From Elusimicrobiaceae bacterium (GTDB lineage: Bacteria; Elusimicrobiota; Elusimicrobia; Elusimicrobiales; Elusimicrobiaceae), in the NCBI GenBank assembly GCA_017528825.1, contig JAFXOI010000041.1, positions 1 to 64,000 of the forward strand: a DNA stretch of 64,000 nt, in the 5' to 3' direction. Below, piece after piece: positions 8,140 to 49,507 of the stretch. A program made the position numbers and the translations under genes. The first letter of the stretch is position 1. Each line of letters begins with the position of its first letter. The notes beneath the pieces are model-generated. The model had not been told where the DNA came from, made no database searches, and saw only the letters and a list, made by a program, of their open reading frames with translations.

Positions 8140-8852
8140 CGCTTTATACCGATCCCCGTTTAACCGCACTCGGCATTGTGCACGGCACCACGGACCGCGC
8201 GTGGGGAAATATGCGTCTGCCCGACTCTGTGCAAAATTTATGGCAGCATACCGGTCTATCTTCCCAACGCATCCTACGTTTCAAACAAACCCATTCAGAC
8301 CGTTTACTTGTCATCCGTGAGGCGAAAGAGGCGCAAGCGGTTATAGCCGCAACGCCCACTGAAGCAGACGGATGGATTCTTTCCGCCGCCGAATGGGGAG
8401 CGGCTATCATCACCGCTGATTGCGTGCCCCTTTTCTTGTGGGATGAAACGGCTGACGTCATAGGATTATCTCACTGCGGCTGGCGTGGGGTGGCCGCGCA
8501 ACTCCCAGCCAAAACCGTTCGCCACTTGCGCCAACAAGGTGCCAAAGGCCGTTTGTCGGCATGGATAGGGCCGCACATACAAGCCTGTTGTTTTGAAGTA
8601 CAAGAAGATGTAGCCCGCCAATTTCCGCAGGCTGTATTACACAAAAACGATAGGTTATTCGTGGACCTAAACCAAGCCATTAAACAACAGCTTATTGGCG
8701 AAGGTTTAGAGGCGGCAGATATTGCTTTTTCTTCGCATTGCACCTGCTGCGAACCGCAACACTTCTTTTCTTTCCGGCGTGATCATGTCCCCGATGCTAT
8801 GTTGTCTTTTGTCTATAAACCCTCTTGCAAACAGCGCACGGATTTTATTTAA
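8118..8852 (+). CDS. laccase-domain (YfiH/DUF152) protein
   Basis: A 244-residue member of the multicopper polyphenol oxidoreductase family (YfiH, YlmD). Some members act on purine nucleosides and some affect peptidoglycan precursor choice. The metal-binding residues are visible as QTHSD, ADCVPL and SHCGWRG, with a second Cys-His cluster near the C-terminus (HCTCCEPQHFFSFRRD). The gene overlaps the end of murI by 22 bp, which supports a cell-wall link; a D-Ala versus D-Ser/Gly proofreading role has been proposed for E. coli YfiH. The start at 8118 is the only good in-frame ATG near the N-terminal part of the fold. Confidence 0.88.
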   Translation: MAEKTQLTLYTDPRLTALGIVHGTTDRAWGNMRLPDSVQNLWQHTGLSSQRILRFKQTHSDRLLVIREAKEAQAVIAATPTEADGWILSAAEWGAAIITADCVPLFLWDETADVIGLSHCGWRGVAAQLPAKTVRHLRQQGAKGRLSAWIGPHIQACCFEVQEDVARQFPQAVLHKNDRLFVDLNQAIKQQLIGEGLEAADIAFSSHCTCCEPQHFFSFRRDHVPDAMLSFVYKPSCKQRTDFI

Positions 8853-8859
8853 TAGAAAC

Positions 8860-9792
8860 ATGGAACATAAAGCAAAAATTCTCTTAGCCGATGACAGCCC
8901 TTCTATACGAGCCTTGGTATCGGAAATTTTGGAAGAAGCTGGCTTTACGGTTATCACGGCTGAAGATGGCCAACAGGCCATTGAAAAAACCTACAAAGAA
9001 AACCCGGATTTATTAATTTTAGATTATGAAATGCCCTATAAAACAGGCTTTGAAGTAGTGAAAGAAGTACGCAGTCACACGGGCTATTTACATACCCCTA
9101 TTATTATCTTTACCGCTGTAACAGCAAAACAAACCAAATTGGAAGGTTTGGAACTGGATATTGACGATTATTTAACCAAACCTACAGATGCCGACGAAGT
9201 AGTGGCCCGCGTTAAATTGTTGCTCAAGCGCAATAAACAAAAAATGGACTGCAATCCGCTGACCCGTTTGCCGGGGAACCCCTCCATTCAAGCGCGGATT
9301 GAAAGTGAGATTTCTTCGGGTCGAAAATTTGCTGTTTTATATTGTGACTTAAACAATTTTAAGGCTTACAATGACAAATATGGTTTTGCCGCCGGAGACA
9401 GAGTGCTCCTTTCCACAGCACGCATCTTAACTACGGCCGCCACGGCTGATCCGCATTCGTTTGTGGGGCATATCGGAGGAGATGATTTTATCATCGTGTG
9501 TGCATTGGACTATGCCGAAAAAATTGCCCAGCAAATTGTAGCCGATATGACGCATTTGGCCCCCAGTTTTTACAATGAAACAGACCGCCAACAAGGATAT
9601 ATGCTATCAGTCAATCGCAAAGGCGACACGGAAAAGTTCTCTTTCCTTTCTATCGGAATTGGCATTGTACACAACTCACTCAAACCGCTCACCTCTTTTG
9701 CCCAAGTGAGCAATATCGGCACAGAACTCAAGTGTTTAGCCAAACAACACGAGGGCAGTTATTACGCCATAGACCGGCGGGGTAATTCATAA
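8860..9792 (+). CDS. response regulator with GGDEF-like domain (GGDDF)
   Basis: I place the start at 8860, 7 bp after the previous stop; the frame stays open further upstream but lies inside the YfiH gene. The 310-residue product has a receiver domain (about 4-122) with acidic pocket D11/D12, phosphorylation site D55 and K107. A GGDEF-type domain follows (about 130-305). The metal-binding DLNNFK (163-168) is intact. The signature reads GGDDF (206-210), with Asp where the catalytic Glu normally stands, so cyclase activity is uncertain. It could make c-di-GMP (or a related dinucleotide) on phosphorylation, or only bind nucleotide. No sensor kinase is adjacent. c-di-GMP often controls type IV pili, and a pilin gene follows convergently, but that link is only suggestive. 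Confidence 0.85.
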   Translation: MEHKAKILLADDSPSIRALVSEILEEAGFTVITAEDGQQAIEKTYKENPDLLILDYEMPYKTGFEVVKEVRSHTGYLHTPIIIFTAVTAKQTKLEGLELDIDDYLTKPTDADEVVARVKLLLKRNKQKMDCNPLTRLPGNPSIQARIESEISSGRKFAVLYCDLNNFKAYNDKYGFAAGDRVLLSTARILTTAATADPHSFVGHIGGDDFIIVCALDYAEKIAQQIVADMTHLAPSFYNETDRQQGYMLSVNRKGDTEKFSFLSIGIGIVHNSLKPLTSFAQVSNIGTELKCLAKQHEGSYYAIDRRGNS

Positions 9793-9820: not shown

Positions 9821-10885
9821 TCAATGGACATATTGTCCGTTTATCATATCCACTTGTTGCTTCACCATTGCGCAACGCTCTGGGGAACAAGCAGGTTTAT
9901 CGCCACAATTGCCACAACAACAAGAACTATCATTATATGTAGCATGTTTACAGCCATAACTACCATTTACATTCGGAGTTTCATAACAAACAGAATCATT
10001 AGAAAAAGTGCCTCCATCACAACCACCATAAAAACTACGGCTGATACAAAGCGAATCATCAAACACAGCATTTCGACAGCCTGACTGTGCATACACCGAA
10101 GATGAAACACATACAGAACTGTTTGAAAAATCAGACCCATTACAACCATCGCTTGCGGCTACACAAGTAGCATTCGTAAAAGTGGAATTTTGACAACCTC
10201 CGCTTGAGTATTGATAAATTCCCTCACATACTCCCCCCTCACCGACTTCTAAATTTTTCTCCCCTTTTACTTTATACCCACAAAACTGCGTAGTTTCATT
10301 ATAGGACATACCTAACCCTACGCATCTATCTGCATTTGTTTTATAACATTTAGCAGTTTTCTGCCCAAAGAAACCATCAACTTCATCACACGTGGCTTTA
10401 TCAACAGACTGGTCAAGCAAATAACGCGTATAGCCGCCTTCTGCATTTAATTCTTGCCCTTGTAGCAAACCACCGCAAAGTCTGTTGGCGCGCTCATCTC
10501 CGGTGGCCGCTTCACAATGTAACTGTCCGGCAAACGTCGGACTCTCATCTAAATAACTAGCAAGCCGTACATTATCGAGCTTACTATTGGTAACGCGGAT
10601 GACATTGGGGTCGGCCGTATTATTAGGGGTTACTAAAGCAAAGGTTAAATCCGTATTATTCATAGTAACATCTAAATTAGCCATTTCATCCGTATAAGAC
10701 CCGTTAGTCATTTTAATGGCTTCTTCGGCATCTTTAATGGCTTTGGCACCCGGCAACATGGTGCTCCAATGGCTTTTATCCACCGCCCCTTGATACATAG
10801 GGATAGCAATAGCTGAAAGCACTCCGATAATCAGTACGACTACTAGTAATTCCACCAGCGTGAATGCTTGTTTATTTTTTTGCAT
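9821..10885 (-). CDS. type IV pilin-like protein with Cys-rich repeat tail (copy 1)
   Basis: The 354-residue protein begins with a short positive leader and the class III prepilin motif QAFTLVELLVVVLIIG; cleavage would be between Ala and Phe (position -1 is Ala, not the usual Gly). The N-terminal helix and a conserved block to about residue 155 are nearly identical to the pilins at 34328 and 51598. The tail (about 205-335) contains five imperfect units of about 20 residues of the form G-C-x(4)-F-x-N/D-x-S-x-C (for example GCQNSTFTNATC, GCRNAVFDDSLC). The end is SSCCCGNCGDKPAC, also conserved in the other two. It is probably an exported minor or major pilin stabilised by disulfides. The leader RNA at 10904-11146 controls it. 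Confidence 0.87.
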   Translation of the reverse strand: MQKNKQAFTLVELLVVVLIIGVLSAIAIPMYQGAVDKSHWSTMLPGAKAIKDAEEAIKMTNGSYTDEMANLDVTMNNTDLTFALVTPNNTADPNVIRVTNSKLDNVRLASYLDESPTFAGQLHCEAATGDERANRLCGGLLQGQELNAEGGYTRYLLDQSVDKATCDEVDGFFGQKTAKCYKTNADRCVGLGMSYNETTQFCGYKVKGEKNLEVGEGGVCEGIYQYSSGGCQNSTFTNATCVAASDGCNGSDFSNSSVCVSSSVYAQSGCRNAVFDDSLCISRSFYGGCDGGTFSNDSVCYETPNVNGSYGCKHATYNDSSCCCGNCGDKPACSPERCAMVKQQVDMINGQYVH

Positions 10886-10903: not shown

Positions 10904-11146
10904 CTGTTTTTAGAAAATGAACGCAAAAAAACGGCTGCTATATTTGAGTCAATCTCAGGTAACCCAAACACAACAGCCGTGGTTTGCTATCATCCGAAGA
11001 TGATAGCAAACACTCGGCACTACATATCCAAGGGATCAGCTCGGATATGTAGTGCCTAAAACGACTGTTCTTGGACTGAGATTGACTTTGGCTTAGCCAA
11101 AGTACACCGTACTCTGCATACGGTTCCAAAAACAGATTCAAATTGT
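10904..11146 (-). ncRNA. structured pilin leader RNA, copy A
   Basis: Reading 5' to 3' on the minus strand: anchor CTGTTTTTGGA (H1-5'); hairpin CCGTA/TACGG; hairpin CTTTGGC/GCCAAAG; segment TCAATCTCAG (4a); TCCAAGAACAG (H1-3'), continuing into ACAGTCGT; a 14-bp hairpin starting GGCACTACATATCC; a 13-bp hairpin starting GTTTGCTATCATC; then ACGGCTG. This last segment opens a 19-bp terminator hairpin ending CAGCCGT and seven T (10931-10925). The terminator loop holds CTGAGATTGA (4b), the exact complement of 4a. ACAGTCGT can pair with ACGGCTGT, which would break the terminator. A second H1-3'-like strand, TCTAAAAACAG, lies at 10914-10904, between the terminator and the ribosome binding site. The terminator ends 40 nt before the pilin ATG. 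The structure is read directly from the sequence; a regulatory role is inferred. Confidence 0.85.
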
Positions 11147-34327: not shown

Positions 34328-35353
34328 CTAATCCAGAAAATTATTTTTGTCCATATAATACGGGTCGCAGCTCTTACCACGCGATTCGCAAGATGGAGCA
34401 CTCCCGCAATACGCCCCACAACAACAAGAGGTTTCATCGTAAGAGGTGGCTTTTCCACTCTGTCCGTCTTGCCAATGTGTGCCACATGCACCTGATACAT
34501 TGGCATAACAAATTGAACCATTTGTAAATTGACTTTGAAAACAGGCTCCGTCACCCCACTGACCGCGTGTATTAGACACACAAATACTACCATTCGTAAA
34601 CGTAGTATTACTACAAGTATGAAGTCCCCCTACAAGACCAACGCATGTTCCTCCCGTAAAACTCACACCGTTACCTTGGCACCCCCACTCCATATCCGCC
34701 AAACAAACTGTCTCGTCTCCAAATATTCCAGATCCATTTTTAACACCGCACAAATCGGTCCCAACTATAGCTGCTGATCCTAGGTTATCGCATTTTGTGG
34801 CAGTGTCCTTGTAACATTTTGTTTTGCTTGTACTCCAACTTCTATTTGCATTATCACACGTGGCTTTGTCTATGTCTTGGTCTAATAAATAACCGGTGTA
34901 GCCGTCTTGACTCGTTAATTCTTGCCCCATTAATAATTTTCCACAAAGTCTGTTGGCACGCTCATCTCCGATGGCCGCTTCACAATGCAACTGTCCGGCG
35001 AATTTCGGATTATCATCTAAGTAACTAGCCAGTCTTACATTGGCTAGTTTGCTATTTGTAACTCTGATTACATTCGGCTCAGAGGTGTTATTAGGTGTGA
35101 TTAAGCTAAATGTTAAATCAGCATTTTCCATAGTTACATCCAAATTAGCCATGGTGTTGGTATATTCACCGTTGCTCATTTTAATGGCTTCTTCGGCATC
35201 TTTAATGGCTTTGGCCCCGGGTAACATCGTGCTCCAATGGCTCTTATCCACTGCCCCTTGATACATAGGGATAGCAATGGCGGAAAGTACTCCTATAATG
35301 AGTACGACGACTAGTAATTCTACTAGTGTGAAGGCATGTTTGTTCTTTTGCAT
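34328..35353 (-). CDS. type IV pilin-like protein with Cys-rich tail (copy 2)
   Basis: The 341-residue protein starts with HAFTLVELLVVVLIIG; prepilin cleavage would be Ala-Phe. Residues up to about 155 match the pilin at 9821 almost without change, including AVDKSHWSTMLPGAKAIKDAEEAIKM and LRLASYLDDNPKFAG-type segments. The tail from about residue 175 differs strongly in sequence and length but keeps the pattern of Cys and F-T/x-N-G-S-x-C units (TFTNGSICVSN, QFTNGSICYAN) and the end TSCCCGAYCG. So the two genes are duplicates whose exposed parts diverged. Leader B lies upstream. Confidence 0.87.
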   Translation of the reverse strand: MQKNKHAFTLVELLVVVLIIGVLSAIAIPMYQGAVDKSHWSTMLPGAKAIKDAEEAIKMSNGEYTNTMANLDVTMENADLTFSLITPNNTSEPNVIRVTNSKLANVRLASYLDDNPKFAGQLHCEAAIGDERANRLCGKLLMGQELTSQDGYTGYLLDQDIDKATCDNANRSWSTSKTKCYKDTATKCDNLGSAAIVGTDLCGVKNGSGIFGDETVCLADMEWGCQGNGVSFTGGTCVGLVGGLHTCSNTTFTNGSICVSNTRGQWGDGACFQSQFTNGSICYANVSGACGTHWQDGQSGKATSYDETSCCCGAYCGSAPSCESRGKSCDPYYMDKNNFLD

Positions 35354-35371: not shown

Positions 35372-35610
35372 CTGTTCTTGGAAAATGTACGCAAAAAAAC
35401 GGCTGTTACACTTGAGTCAGTCTGAGAGCCTCAATCATAACAGCCGTAGTTTGCCATCGTCTTGAGACGATGGCAAACATTCGGCACAAAACATACGGGT
35501 AATTAGTCCGTATATTTTGCGCCTAAAACGACTGTCTTTGGACTCAGACTGAACTGCCTACGGCAGTGCACCGCATTCTGCATACGGTTCCAAAAACAGA
35601 ATCAAATTGT
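35372..35610 (-). ncRNA. structured pilin leader RNA, copy B
   Basis: It has the same helix order as copy A but different stem sequences. Minus strand: CTGTTTTTGGA anchor; hairpin CCGTAT/ATGCGG; hairpin ACTGCC/GGCAGT; 4a TCAGTCTGAG; TCCAAAGACAG continuing into ACAGTCGT; a long hairpin from GGCGCAAAATATACGG; a 13-bp hairpin GTTTGCCATCGTC with a TCAA loop; and a terminator ACGGCTG to CAGCCGT with 7 T (35399-35393). The terminator loop contains CTCAGACTGA, the exact complement of 4a. A second copy of the anchor's partner, TTCCAAGAACAG, occurs after the terminator (35383-35372). The T run ends 39 nt before the pilin ATG. Together with its promoter it fills most of the 366-bp gap between the pilin and tolB. 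Confidence 0.85.
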
Positions 35611-35638: not shown

Positions 35639-35647
35639 ATTGTAACA
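35639..35647 (-). promoter_or_regulatory. extended -10 promoter of leader B
   Basis: TGTTACAAT on the minus strand precedes leader B by about 30 bp. The sequence TTTTGTTACAAT also occurs at the leader C promoter. Confidence 0.5.
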
Positions 35648-35670
35648 AAAATCTTTACCTAGCGCAAAAA

Positions 35671-38376: not shown

Positions 38377-38595
38377 ACAATTTGACCTGTTTTTGGAACC
38401 GTTGCCAAAACGGACAGCTATTGAACAAATAGCTAGGATTCAGTCCAAAAACAGCCGATAGTAGGCACACAAAGGCGACGGCCTGCGTGTGCCGAGTGTT
38501 TGCCGCTCACTTGGGCGGCAAACTACGGCTGTTATGTTGGGTAGCTGAATCCTGCTCAGACATAGCAGCCGTTTTTGTTGTGTTTTATAAAACAG
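38377..38595 (+). ncRNA. structured pilin leader RNA, copy C
   Basis: Plus strand order: CTGTTTTTGGA anchor; hairpin CCGTT/AACGG; hairpin AGCTATT/AATAGCT; 4a AGGATTCAG; TCCAAAAACAG (perfect partner of the anchor) continuing into ACAGCCGA; hairpin GGCACAC/GTGTGCC with inner AGGC/GCCT; 9-bp hairpin GTTTGCCGC/GCGGCAAAC; then terminator ACGGCTG to CAGCCGT and TTTTT (38572-38576). The terminator loop AGCTGAATCCT contains the complement of 4a. A shorter partner of the anchor, AAAACAG, follows at 38589-38595. The pilin ATG is at 38620. With its promoter and the pal promoter it accounts for the 367-bp gap. Confidence 0.85.
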
Positions 38596-38619: not shown

Positions 38620-39147
38620 ATGAAATACAACAAAAAAGCCTTCACACTCATAGAACTGCTTATTGTCGTACTGATTATCGGCATCCTAACTGCTGTGGCA
38701 ATACCGCAATATCAAAAAACAGTTACACGCTCCGAGGCAATAAGTATGTTACAACTATTCAAACCATTTACAGAGGCATATAACTTAGACTATATGGAAC
38801 GCGGAACAAACCCACCTAATTTTGAAATATTCGGCGTTTCTTTACCGGCAGATTGGACGGGAGCTGATACAACACAAGCCACCAACGGGAAATGGGAACT
38901 ATCTTATTACGGTGGACACGATTGGAGATGGATCACGATAATCAAGACAACAGAACCATATAGCAACTGCGGTTTTAGGTATCTTAAACAAAGAGGAACG
39001 GGTGGACATACTTATCATCCACTCGATGAAATAGTTTGCGTGGAAAATTATACGGTAGGTAATAACGGCTCTTTTTGCACAAAATTATTTGGTGGAAAAT
39101 ATCTAGGAGGCGATGGAGGATATCGAGTTTATTCTTTGCCTCTATAG
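38620..39147 (+). CDS. type IV pilin-like protein, short form
   Basis: I choose the ATG at 38620 after AAGGAGAAA; the frame is open upstream, but that part lies in the leader RNA. The 175-residue product starts MKYNKKAFTLIELLIVVLII, a prepilin motif with Ala before the cleavage Phe, followed by AVAIPQYQK, typical of pseudopilins and pilins. The C-terminal domain is unlike the Cys-rich pilins and has only a few Cys (SNCGFRY, VCVENY, SFCTKLFGGKYLG). Such short pilins often have a disulfide near the C-terminus. Which pilus or secretion system it serves is not shown here. Confidence 0.85.
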   Translation: MKYNKKAFTLIELLIVVLIIGILTAVAIPQYQKTVTRSEAISMLQLFKPFTEAYNLDYMERGTNPPNFEIFGVSLPADWTGADTTQATNGKWELSYYGGHDWRWITIIKTTEPYSNCGFRYLKQRGTGGHTYHPLDEIVCVENYTVGNNGSFCTKLFGGKYLGGDGGYRVYSLPL

Positions 39148-44626: not shown

Positions 44627-45109
44627 CTACAAGTAATATGCTTTCATACGAGTAATAAATTTATAGTTATGTTCTCCGGTTCCACCTAAATCTCTACATC
44701 CCTGCGCTCCAATTGCCCCATCTCCTGTACAAGTCATTTTTCCCACATACTCCGGATACTGACATTTTATCCAATAACGCAATGCCACACGAGTATCATC
44801 TGCCGGGAAAGACAAAACTGTTACATAATAGCCAGCACTGTTTGAGTTAACGCTAATTTCCATCTTTGTAGGATCATAAGGGATTTGTATATCTAATGCG
44901 TCCAAAGTAGGAGTAGCTCCTCCCGTCTCCATGTAATATCTTTTAAAAGATTCTGCGATTTGCCTCGTATGCATTAATAATTCAATATTTCTAGATTTAC
45001 GCACTGCCCGTTGATATTGCGGCAAAGCAATTGCTGATAAGATACCGATAATTAAAACAACTACTAATAATTCAATAAGCGTGAAAGCCCTTTTATTTTC
45101 TAGAAACAT
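44627..45109 (-). CDS. type IV pilin-like protein, short form
   Basis: A 160-residue product starting MFLENKRAFTLIELLVVVLII, with prepilin cleavage at Ala-Phe, then ALPQYQRAVRKSRNIELL typical of pilins. The C-terminal part has three Cys (IKCQYPEY, KMTCTGDG, QGCRDLGG). There is no leader RNA of the A-D type. Instead a promoter with the same upstream box as the pilin at 51598 drives it (45139-45209). It is divergent from another pilin at 45279. Confidence 0.85.
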   Translation of the reverse strand: MFLENKRAFTLIELLVVVLIIGILSAIALPQYQRAVRKSRNIELLMHTRQIAESFKRYYMETGGATPTLDALDIQIPYDPTKMEISVNSNSAGYYVTVLSFPADDTRVALRYWIKCQYPEYVGKMTCTGDGAIGAQGCRDLGGTGEHNYKFITRMKAYYL

Positions 45110-48745: not shown

Positions 48746-48962
48746 ACAGTTTAATCTGTTTTTGGAACTGTATGTAGAATACAGGCTTTGGCAATTTTGC
48801 CAAATCACCGAAACGCCAAAAACAGTCGTTTAGGCACAAAATAAAGTGGGTAGCTCCCACTACGTTTTGTGCTGAAAACGTTTATCGTTTTAACGATAAG
48901 CTACGGCTGTTGTTTTGAGTTGCGTTTCGGTGGCTCAAAATAAGCAGCCGTTTTTTTTGCGT
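48746..48962 (+). ncRNA. structured pilin leader RNA, copy D
   Basis: Plus strand order: CTGTTTTTGG anchor; hairpin CTGTAT/ATACAG; hairpin TTTGGCA/TGCCAAA; 4a CACCGAAACG; CCAAAAACAG continuing into ACAGTCGT; hairpin GGCACAAAA/TTTTGTGC with inner GGG/CCC; hairpin GTTTATCGTT/AACGATAAGC; then terminator ACGGCTG to CAGCCGT and eight T (48951-48958). The terminator loop TGCGTTTCGGTG contains CGTTTCGGTG, the exact complement of 4a. No second anchor partner lies after the terminator here, unlike copies A-C. The pilin ATG is 33 nt after the T run. It accounts for most of the 353-bp gap after tRNA-Pro. Confidence 0.85.
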
Positions 48963-48991: not shown

Positions 48992-49507
48992 ATGAAAAGA
49001 GGTTTTACCTTAATAGAATTATTAGTTGTAGTATTAATTATCGGTGTGTTAACAGCTATCGCGTTGCCACAGTATGAAAAAGCTGTTGAGAAGGCCAAAC
49101 TCACCGAAGCACTAGAGACTTTGAGTGCATTACAACGAGCTACTGATATATTTTGCTTAGAAAATGGATTACCTACCACAGAAAGCAGATTATTAGGAGG
49201 TACTGACAATCCGGGACAAAATTTATCTATTAATTTAACAGGATTAAGCTGTTCCGACGAAAATTTTGGAGGACATAAATTTTGCAACTCAAAATACTTT
49301 GGATATGAAGTCATCTGTTACAACAACGGTTGTGTTATTTCTGCAGCTCGTACACAAAACAATACTTGGCTATATTTTCTATATCTAGATAATCGGGATG
49401 AAAATAATAACAACTATTCCAAAACTTGTCTGATTGAGACAGACAAAGGCGAAGGAATATGTAATGGTTTAGGAAAACAAGGATGGAATATTGACGACGA
49501 TAGATAA
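48992..49507 (+). CDS. type IV pilin-like protein, short form
   Basis: The 171-residue product starts MKRGFTLIELLVVVLIIG, a short leader with Gly-Phe cleavage, and continues ALPQYEKAVEKAKLTEAL. The C-terminal domain has Cys at several positions (IFCLEN, LSCSDEN, KFCNSK, VICYNNGC, KTCLIE, GICNGL), giving possible disulfides. Ribosome binding site AAAAGGAG. It is preceded by leader D and followed by a terminator, so it is a one-gene unit. Confidence 0.86.
   Translation: MKRGFTLIELLVVVLIIGVLTAIALPQYEKAVEKAKLTEALETLSALQRATDIFCLENGLPTTESRLLGGTDNPGQNLSINLTGLSCSDENFGGHKFCNSKYFGYEVICYNNGCVISAARTQNNTWLYFLYLDNRDENNNNYSKTCLIETDKGEGICNGLGKQGWNIDDDR

Follow-up and report, generated by a model that had tools for sequence, protein, structure and literature searches.

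Riboswitches for c-di-GMP sit upstream of pilin and surface genes, with several copies per genome, and processive antitermination of surface-gene operons by RfaH/ops, LoaP and EAR works with a leader element placed before surface polysaccharide and pilus-type genes. At the pil1 locus of Streptococcus gallolyticus, attenuation is driven by a leader peptide with GCAGA repeats (PMC3894217). Here we analyse leaders found in a 64,000-nt stretch of an Elusimicrobiaceae genome (hereafter the window; contig JAFXOI010000041.1, positions 1 to 64,000). Their regulon is similar to that of c-di-GMP riboswitches, without an Rfam match to any c-di-GMP class; with S. gallolyticus pil1 (PMC3894217) they share a premature terminator before pilus genes, but no conserved leader peptide; and they differ from RfaH/ops, LoaP and EAR in their built-in terminator and switch, with no Rfam match and a single NusG in the genome. 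Terminator/antiterminator attenuators and riboswitch platforms are matched in the strand shared between two exclusive partners, in an antiterminator that can fold first, and in an intrinsic-terminator-like hairpin before the start codon. Unlike these, the leaders have no recognised aptamer or leader peptide, they carry a copy-specific outer helix and an antiterminator of ~25 bp around two long hairpins, and they reach 68 copies per genome.

The leaders very probably constitute a family of bistable transcription-attenuation RNAs, a statement made without expression data, termination and read-through being predicted only. The basic logic is ordinary; the scale, the copy-specific outer helix and a palindromic loop are unusual. 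With no Rfam match and no counterpart in the literature searched, this appears to be a new, undescribed RNA family of the attenuator kind. As a regulatory RNA present at up to 68 copies per genome in hard-to-grow gut bacteria, it opens a way, across the whole genome, into the question of how Elusimicrobiaceae select from over 100 pilin-like genes and alter their surface, and its palindromic P4 loops provide a concrete, cheap way to ask whether bacterial leader RNAs communicate by dimerising.

Leader anatomy and distribution

The window holds four leaders, each ahead of a pilin-like gene. Copy A (10925-11135, minus strand) lies upstream of the gene at 9821-10885; copy B (35393-35599, minus strand) precedes a type IV pilin-like gene of 341 aa with an N_methyl match (34328-35353, minus strand); copy C (38387-38578, plus strand) is followed by a gene with its ATG at 38620; and copy D (48756-48955, plus strand) by the gene at 48992-49507. 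All sequences quoted in an earlier, sequence-only reading of this locus are present where that reading placed them. From 5′ to 3′, the general order comprises a -10-like box (in many copies), ACAAUUU, P1a, P2, P3, Qa, P1b, J, P4, P5 and PTa (in the general anatomy, ACGGCUGU), and then a segment that holds Qb, PTb, a T run, often a further partner of the anchor, and the ribosome binding site.

In copy B, where all features lie on the minus strand, a promoter -10-like segment, TTGTTACAAT, occupies 35639-35648, and many other copies carry the -10-like TTGTTATACT ~40 nt ahead of the anchor; both assignments are consensus matches only. The segment ACAATTTGATT (35600-35610), identified by the conservation of CAATTT/AAATTT, adjoins the anchor on its 5′ side, and 222 of 253 copies have one or other of these hexamers at most 14 nt from the anchor. 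The anchor helix, scored by counting P1 pairs, has the 5′ arm P1a, CTGTTTTTGGA (35589-35599), and the 3′ arm P1b, TCCAAAGACAG (35532-35542), the ACAG of which is common to the antiterminator. Between the two arms, MFE folds and pair counts place hairpins P2 (35570-35588) and P3 (35553-35567), followed by the 5′ strand of the outer antiterminator, Qa, TCAGTCTGAG (35543-35552), which is the cis-specific, covarying partner of Qb over 8-12 bp. The joiner J, usually YCG and here TCG (35529-35531), completes the inner antiterminator strand ACAGTCG. Two further hairpins from MFE folds, P4 (35483-35523) and P5 (35449-35478), come next, and the P4 apical loop, ACTAATTAC (35499-35507), contains the palindrome TAATTA at 35500-35505. 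The terminator 5′ arm PTa, ACGGCTGT (35440-35447), is likewise common to the antiterminator; Qb, the 3′ strand of the outer antiterminator, CTCAGACTGA (35417-35426), lies within the terminator hairpin loop; and the terminator 3′ arm PTb, ACAGCCGT, with the T run spans 35393-35406 (3′ arm, 35399-35406). A post-terminator partner of the anchor, TTCCAAGAACAG (35372-35383), of a type whose enrichment is reported below, separates the T run from the gene.

A short pattern, followed by a covariance model (R1, the 5′ domain of the leader, 96 positions), recovered ~45-46 convincing copies of this ~200-nt leader in the 1.53-Mb genome from which the window is taken, mostly ahead of pilus genes. Copies occur in 31 of 37 genomes of the genus, at 0 to 68 per genome and varying among species. 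Of 340 genomes across the phylum, 94 match the 5′ model, nearly all of them in one family (f1), with a second family (f21) giving weaker scores and the listed order neighbours (f2) giving no match to that model; among named records with matches, most are MAGs from gut and rumen that carry the labels Elusimicrobiaceae, Elusimicrobium or Elusimicrobiales. Viral contigs gave no leader match in one pattern scan, on which a viral or phage element was rejected, and a first contig search gave no relative when queried with the pilin protein. In Rfam, only tRNAs reached the gathering score within the window, and the best leader matches stayed far below the cut-off. Literature searches (Elusimicrobia with pilin, riboswitch or RNA motif; leader dimerisation), which left subscription literature mostly outside their scope, found no description of the leader RNA.

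The fetched loci were parsed into 258 candidate copies, from which 253 distinct leaders, all of one family, remained after five weak ones were dropped; a second set holds 23 further copies, 22 of them from the second family of the phylum. Because the copies were located through anchor-region patterns and an anchor-region model, the conservation of P1a, which is nearly invariant, partly reflects how copies were selected; PTa was located by its similarity to ACGGCTGT. Related copies are not independent events.

Genes downstream of the leaders

The downstream gene could be read for 244 copies; for 167 of them it is pilin-like by motif, and the rest include a few pilins too. Genes were called with a simple ORF rule, which may err in single cases. 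Pfam matches among 58 downstream genes without the pilin motif comprised outer-membrane beta-barrels (7), glycosyltransferase families 8 and 2 (5 each), EcoRI-type methylases (4), heptosyltransferases (3), sulfatase-type genes (2), polysaccharide pyruvyl transferases (2) and others, and lipoprotein genes were also among those preceded by leaders elsewhere. This spread indicates a leader of surface-structure genes and some defence-type genes, pilins above all. The description of the element as a pilin switch thus fits its main targets but is too narrow, given the glycosyltransferases, barrels and methylases. The genome of the window has 114 N_methyl pilin-like matches, only about a third of them with a leader, and the pilin-like genes near 45023, 45285 and 52549 in the window are without a leader match. 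At 8722-9792 (plus strand), convergent with the copy A pilin gene, lies a response regulator gene with a GGDEF-like domain, one of three GGDEF matches in this genome, which also has one PilZ match.

Two exclusive partners for the shared strands

Copies A, B and D carry ACAGTCGT and copy C carries ACAGCCGA, pairing with ACGGCTGT over 8 positions in A, B and D and over 7 in C. All six pairs of ACAGYY:RGCUGU are formed in 240 of the 253 distinct leaders, with a fraction paired of 0.987 in register versus 0.28-0.72 when slid, so the competing pairing first noted in the window copies is real and far beyond chance. The inner helix is kept mostly through G-U interchange, with a change from C-G to U-A in four copies (Fisher p 0.001; copies related), and G-U wobble is present in P1, in PT and in the inner helix. 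PTa is nearly invariant whereas PTb is variable (entropy 0.0-0.2 versus 0.9-1.45 bits, positions 6-8), the pattern expected if PTa serves two partners. In one leader (L340), a matched change runs through the three strands P1a-P1b-PTa, from G-C-G to A-T-A, and one copy of the main family has a three-strand change from C-G-C to T-A-T; 15 of the 23 copies in the second set have lost the outermost anchor pair, yet the base concerned still pairs with PTa. Together, the matched three-strand changes, the lost anchor pair and the unequal variability of PTa and PTb support two exclusive partners for both PTa and P1b. A hairpin with a T run, 26-79 nt ahead of pilin start codons (sampled values), fits a predicted intrinsic terminator, and an alternative helix that excludes it and is backed by covariation fits an attenuator. 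Sequence and covariation thus establish two mutually exclusive pairings and an intrinsic-terminator-like hairpin, and the exclusivity of terminator and antiterminator, previously proposed by inspection, now has the support of covariation and folding.

The 8-nt antiterminator pairing of the sequence-only reading exists, but it is only the inner part of a longer helix: the full antiterminator is ~25 bp, with ACAGYCG:CGGCUGU as its inner part. The outer helix, Q, joins Qa, the segment before P1b, to Qb in the terminator loop over 8-12 bp; it is specific in cis and covaries strictly. At least 8 bp of Qa:Qb form in cis in 95% of copies, compared with 3% when Qa was matched to the loop of another copy with the same search freedom, and 207 distinct Qa sequences exist among 258 copies. 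When 58 rows from the two families were aligned without gaps, two-sided changes were found in all eight pairs of Q, and the antiterminator structure reached a covariation score of 0.794, versus 0.191 shuffled and at most 0.139 slid. The figure of 100% paired for Q is inflated because the register was chosen by best pairing; the fair test is the cross-copy control, which handles register choice. With anchor and terminator both formed, Qa:Qb would be a pseudoknot, but Qa:Qb and ACAGYCG:CGGCUGU nest; the two are most simply read as a single long antiterminator with Qa:Qb on the outside.

Folding predictions and the proposed switch

Unconstrained MFE folding of nascent RNA ending after Qb gave the inner antiterminator in 243 of 253 leaders and the anchor in 6, and with the terminator complete, terminator and anchor appeared together in 230 and the antiterminator in 17. 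Before PTb, a forced antiterminator was better than a forced anchor by a mean of 8.5 kcal/mol; after PTb, terminator plus anchor was better by a mean of 5.7 kcal/mol. The second set behaved alike, with a nascent antiterminator in 21 of 23 copies and then a terminator in 19 of 23. Swapping Qb between copies lowered the number of nascent antiterminators from 243 to 157. For the window copies, the predicted nascent fold is the long antiterminator helix. Vienna energies take no account of pseudoknots and so do not cover a terminator state in which Q is paired as well. The antiterminator is predicted to form first, with anchor and terminator more stable once complete, and because the nascent MFE state is the antiterminator and the complete one is anchor plus terminator, we read the leader as a bistable transcription attenuator.

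During transcription, Qa-P1b-J would pair with the stretch from PTa to Qb into a long antiterminator enclosing P4 and P5, a helix that would consume both P1b, the 3′ arm of the anchor, and PTa, the 5′ arm of the terminator. With P1b held in the anchor (P1a:P1b around P2 and P3), PTa would be free and the terminator could form ahead of the gene; an antiterminator lasting past the T run would let the gene be transcribed. The anchor strand P1b would be the deciding element of this cis-acting switch. Actual termination, a regulated choice, and a bias acting through the anchor domain (P1-P3), P4 or polymerase speed are all inferred; the biasing input may be a ligand, a protein, polymerase speed or another leader RNA acting via P4.

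Beyond the terminator, copy A has an anchor partner, TCTAAAAACAG, at 10904-10914, as copy B does; copy C has a 7-nt version and copy D has none. The pairing of P1a with the post-terminator stretch beats shuffles (z below -2.5) in 21 of 40 copies from the genome of the window and in 83 of 211 others. The second partner of the anchor reported from A, B and C is thus borne out in those copies, but with about half of the copies in this genome and 40% elsewhere it is common rather than essential. An alternative segment, complementary to the 3′ half of the terminator, is found in 10 of 40 copies from this genome and in 40 of 211 others; in copy D and others such a segment after the terminator, for example TTTTGGGCCCGA, replaces the anchor partner. 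We infer that both segment types would keep a read-through RNA in the antiterminator form.

Palindromic P4 loops

The dimerisation loop of HIV-1 is 9 nt long. Its dimerisation initiation site has a 6-nt palindrome within the apical loop (PMC7357161). Among 24 distinct P4 loops of 9-11 nt in the leaders, a perfect palindrome of 6 nt occurs in 21, where shuffling gave a mean of 1.9 and, in 300 rounds, never more than 6; none of the 24 lacks a palindrome of at least 4 nt. When all P4 loops are considered, 163 of 251 have a palindrome of at least 6 nt (shuffles, 12) and 234 of 251 one of at least 4 nt (shuffles, 89), and no 6-nt palindrome was found in the loops of P2, P3 or P5. Three layouts recur, 2+6+1 (97), 2+4+1 (41) and 3+6+1 (32), and at least 8 different hexamers occur (UAAUUA, UUAUAA, UCAUGA, UUCGAA, UUGCAA, CUAUAG, CUCGAG and UCUAGA). 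Leaders with the same Qa and anchor domains that are 86-97% similar can differ in their P4 palindrome, and palindromicity is also seen in the second family. Within the window, the palindromic P4 loops are CTGATCC in copy A, ACTAATTAC in copy B and TAGCT in copy D, and that of copy C (GGCGACGGCC) has no palindrome inside the loop.

A homodimeric kissing loop should be a self-complementary apical loop that stays palindromic as its sequence changes, and P4 fits this description. This suggests that the leaders dimerise via their P4 loops, a hypothesis without dimerisation data. The likeness to the HIV-1 site lies in the 6-nt palindrome of the apical loop, the common 2+6+1 layout resembling the HIV-1 loop; the differences are that the leaders are bacterial attenuators with many palindromes, several of them A/U only. 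Neither this loop nor the outer 8-12 bp helix nor the ~46 genome copies had featured in the sequence-only reading.

What could bias the switch

A ligand-binding riboswitch, with P1-P2-P3 (or P4/P5) as aptamer and a ligand that fixes the anchor and so favours termination, or the reverse, is a possibility that we entertain only tentatively. A bistable platform is exactly what riboswitches use, P1a is nearly invariant, and the regulon, with its pilin, polysaccharide and surface genes, looks like those controlled by c-di-GMP, in a genome with three GGDEF matches and one PilZ match; yet there is no Rfam riboswitch match, P3 is variable, no large conserved unpaired core was seen beyond ACAAUUU and short joiners, and there are no binding data. 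Since c-di-GMP signalling genes exist, c-di-GMP stays a candidate, without being supported. ACAAUUU itself, highly conserved and probably single-stranded before the anchor, is a possible landing site for an RNA-binding antiterminator or terminator factor, and protein-controlled attenuators are a known kind, but no candidate has been identified, and a protein trigger remains doubtful. A search of the genome (95% complete) for a specialised NusG paralogue found none: the one PF02357 match is NusG, so a paralogue of the RfaH/LoaP/UpxY type is not evident, and a specialised NusG was rejected. Action of one leader on another, in which P4 loops kiss and a dimer with a nascent or released leader biases the switch, would account for a 6-nt palindrome that is present in 21 of 24 distinct P4 loops and absent from P2, P3 and P5, that differs among similar leaders with the same Qa, and that is a property shared with the second family. 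Against it, the kiss would be weak for several palindromes made of A and U alone, there are loops, such as that of copy C, without a palindrome, P4 is present in both states, and no dimer has been measured, which leaves the idea conceivable and no more. Equally speculative is its extension to the regulon, whereby about a dozen palindromic P4 types would let nascent and released leaders of the same type pair, coupling pilin and surface genes, with Q keeping the switch in cis.

An attenuator without any signal, whether fixed, leaky or stochastic, that keeps surface genes low and heterogeneous seems improbable. The regulon does resemble phase-variable gene sets, and a stochastic pilus attenuator is known in S. 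gallolyticus (PMC3894217), but that case relies on a repeat-length leader peptide, not found here, and the large conserved P1-P5 domain exceeds what a fixed attenuator needs. No conserved leader peptide was found in the 253 upstream regions, 32 of which have a Shine-Dalgarno sequence and start codon, mostly TTG, opening unrelated short ORFs; lacking a conserved short ORF, a leader-peptide attenuator was rejected. That the element acts as DNA and not as RNA, as a recombination site or the boundary of a mobile cassette, can be given almost no credence: inverted repeats, many dispersed copies and patchy copy number would suit it, but G-U wobble pairs in three helices (P1, PT and the inner one), a constant placement in which the T run comes before a start codon, and the lack of a viral-contig match in one scan speak against it, as does the single orientation to the gene shared by the copies read in the genome of the window. 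On this last ground, an invertible DNA element was rejected.

Additional features at the 5′ ends

Upstream of the anchor of these putative bistable attenuators, a Shine-Dalgarno-like AGGAG lies near the presumed RNA 5′ end in 101 of 253 upstream regions (41 in shuffles), often ~50 nt before the anchor and seldom with a start codon after it. In 144 of 253 copies there is also a further short hairpin, P0, ~45 to 9 nt 5′ of the anchor. An interpretation of P0 loops as palindromes was rejected, with at least 4 nt in 21 of 113 distinct loops versus 17.8 in shuffles. Some P0 loops read CTGATCC or CTAATCC, resembling P4 loops.
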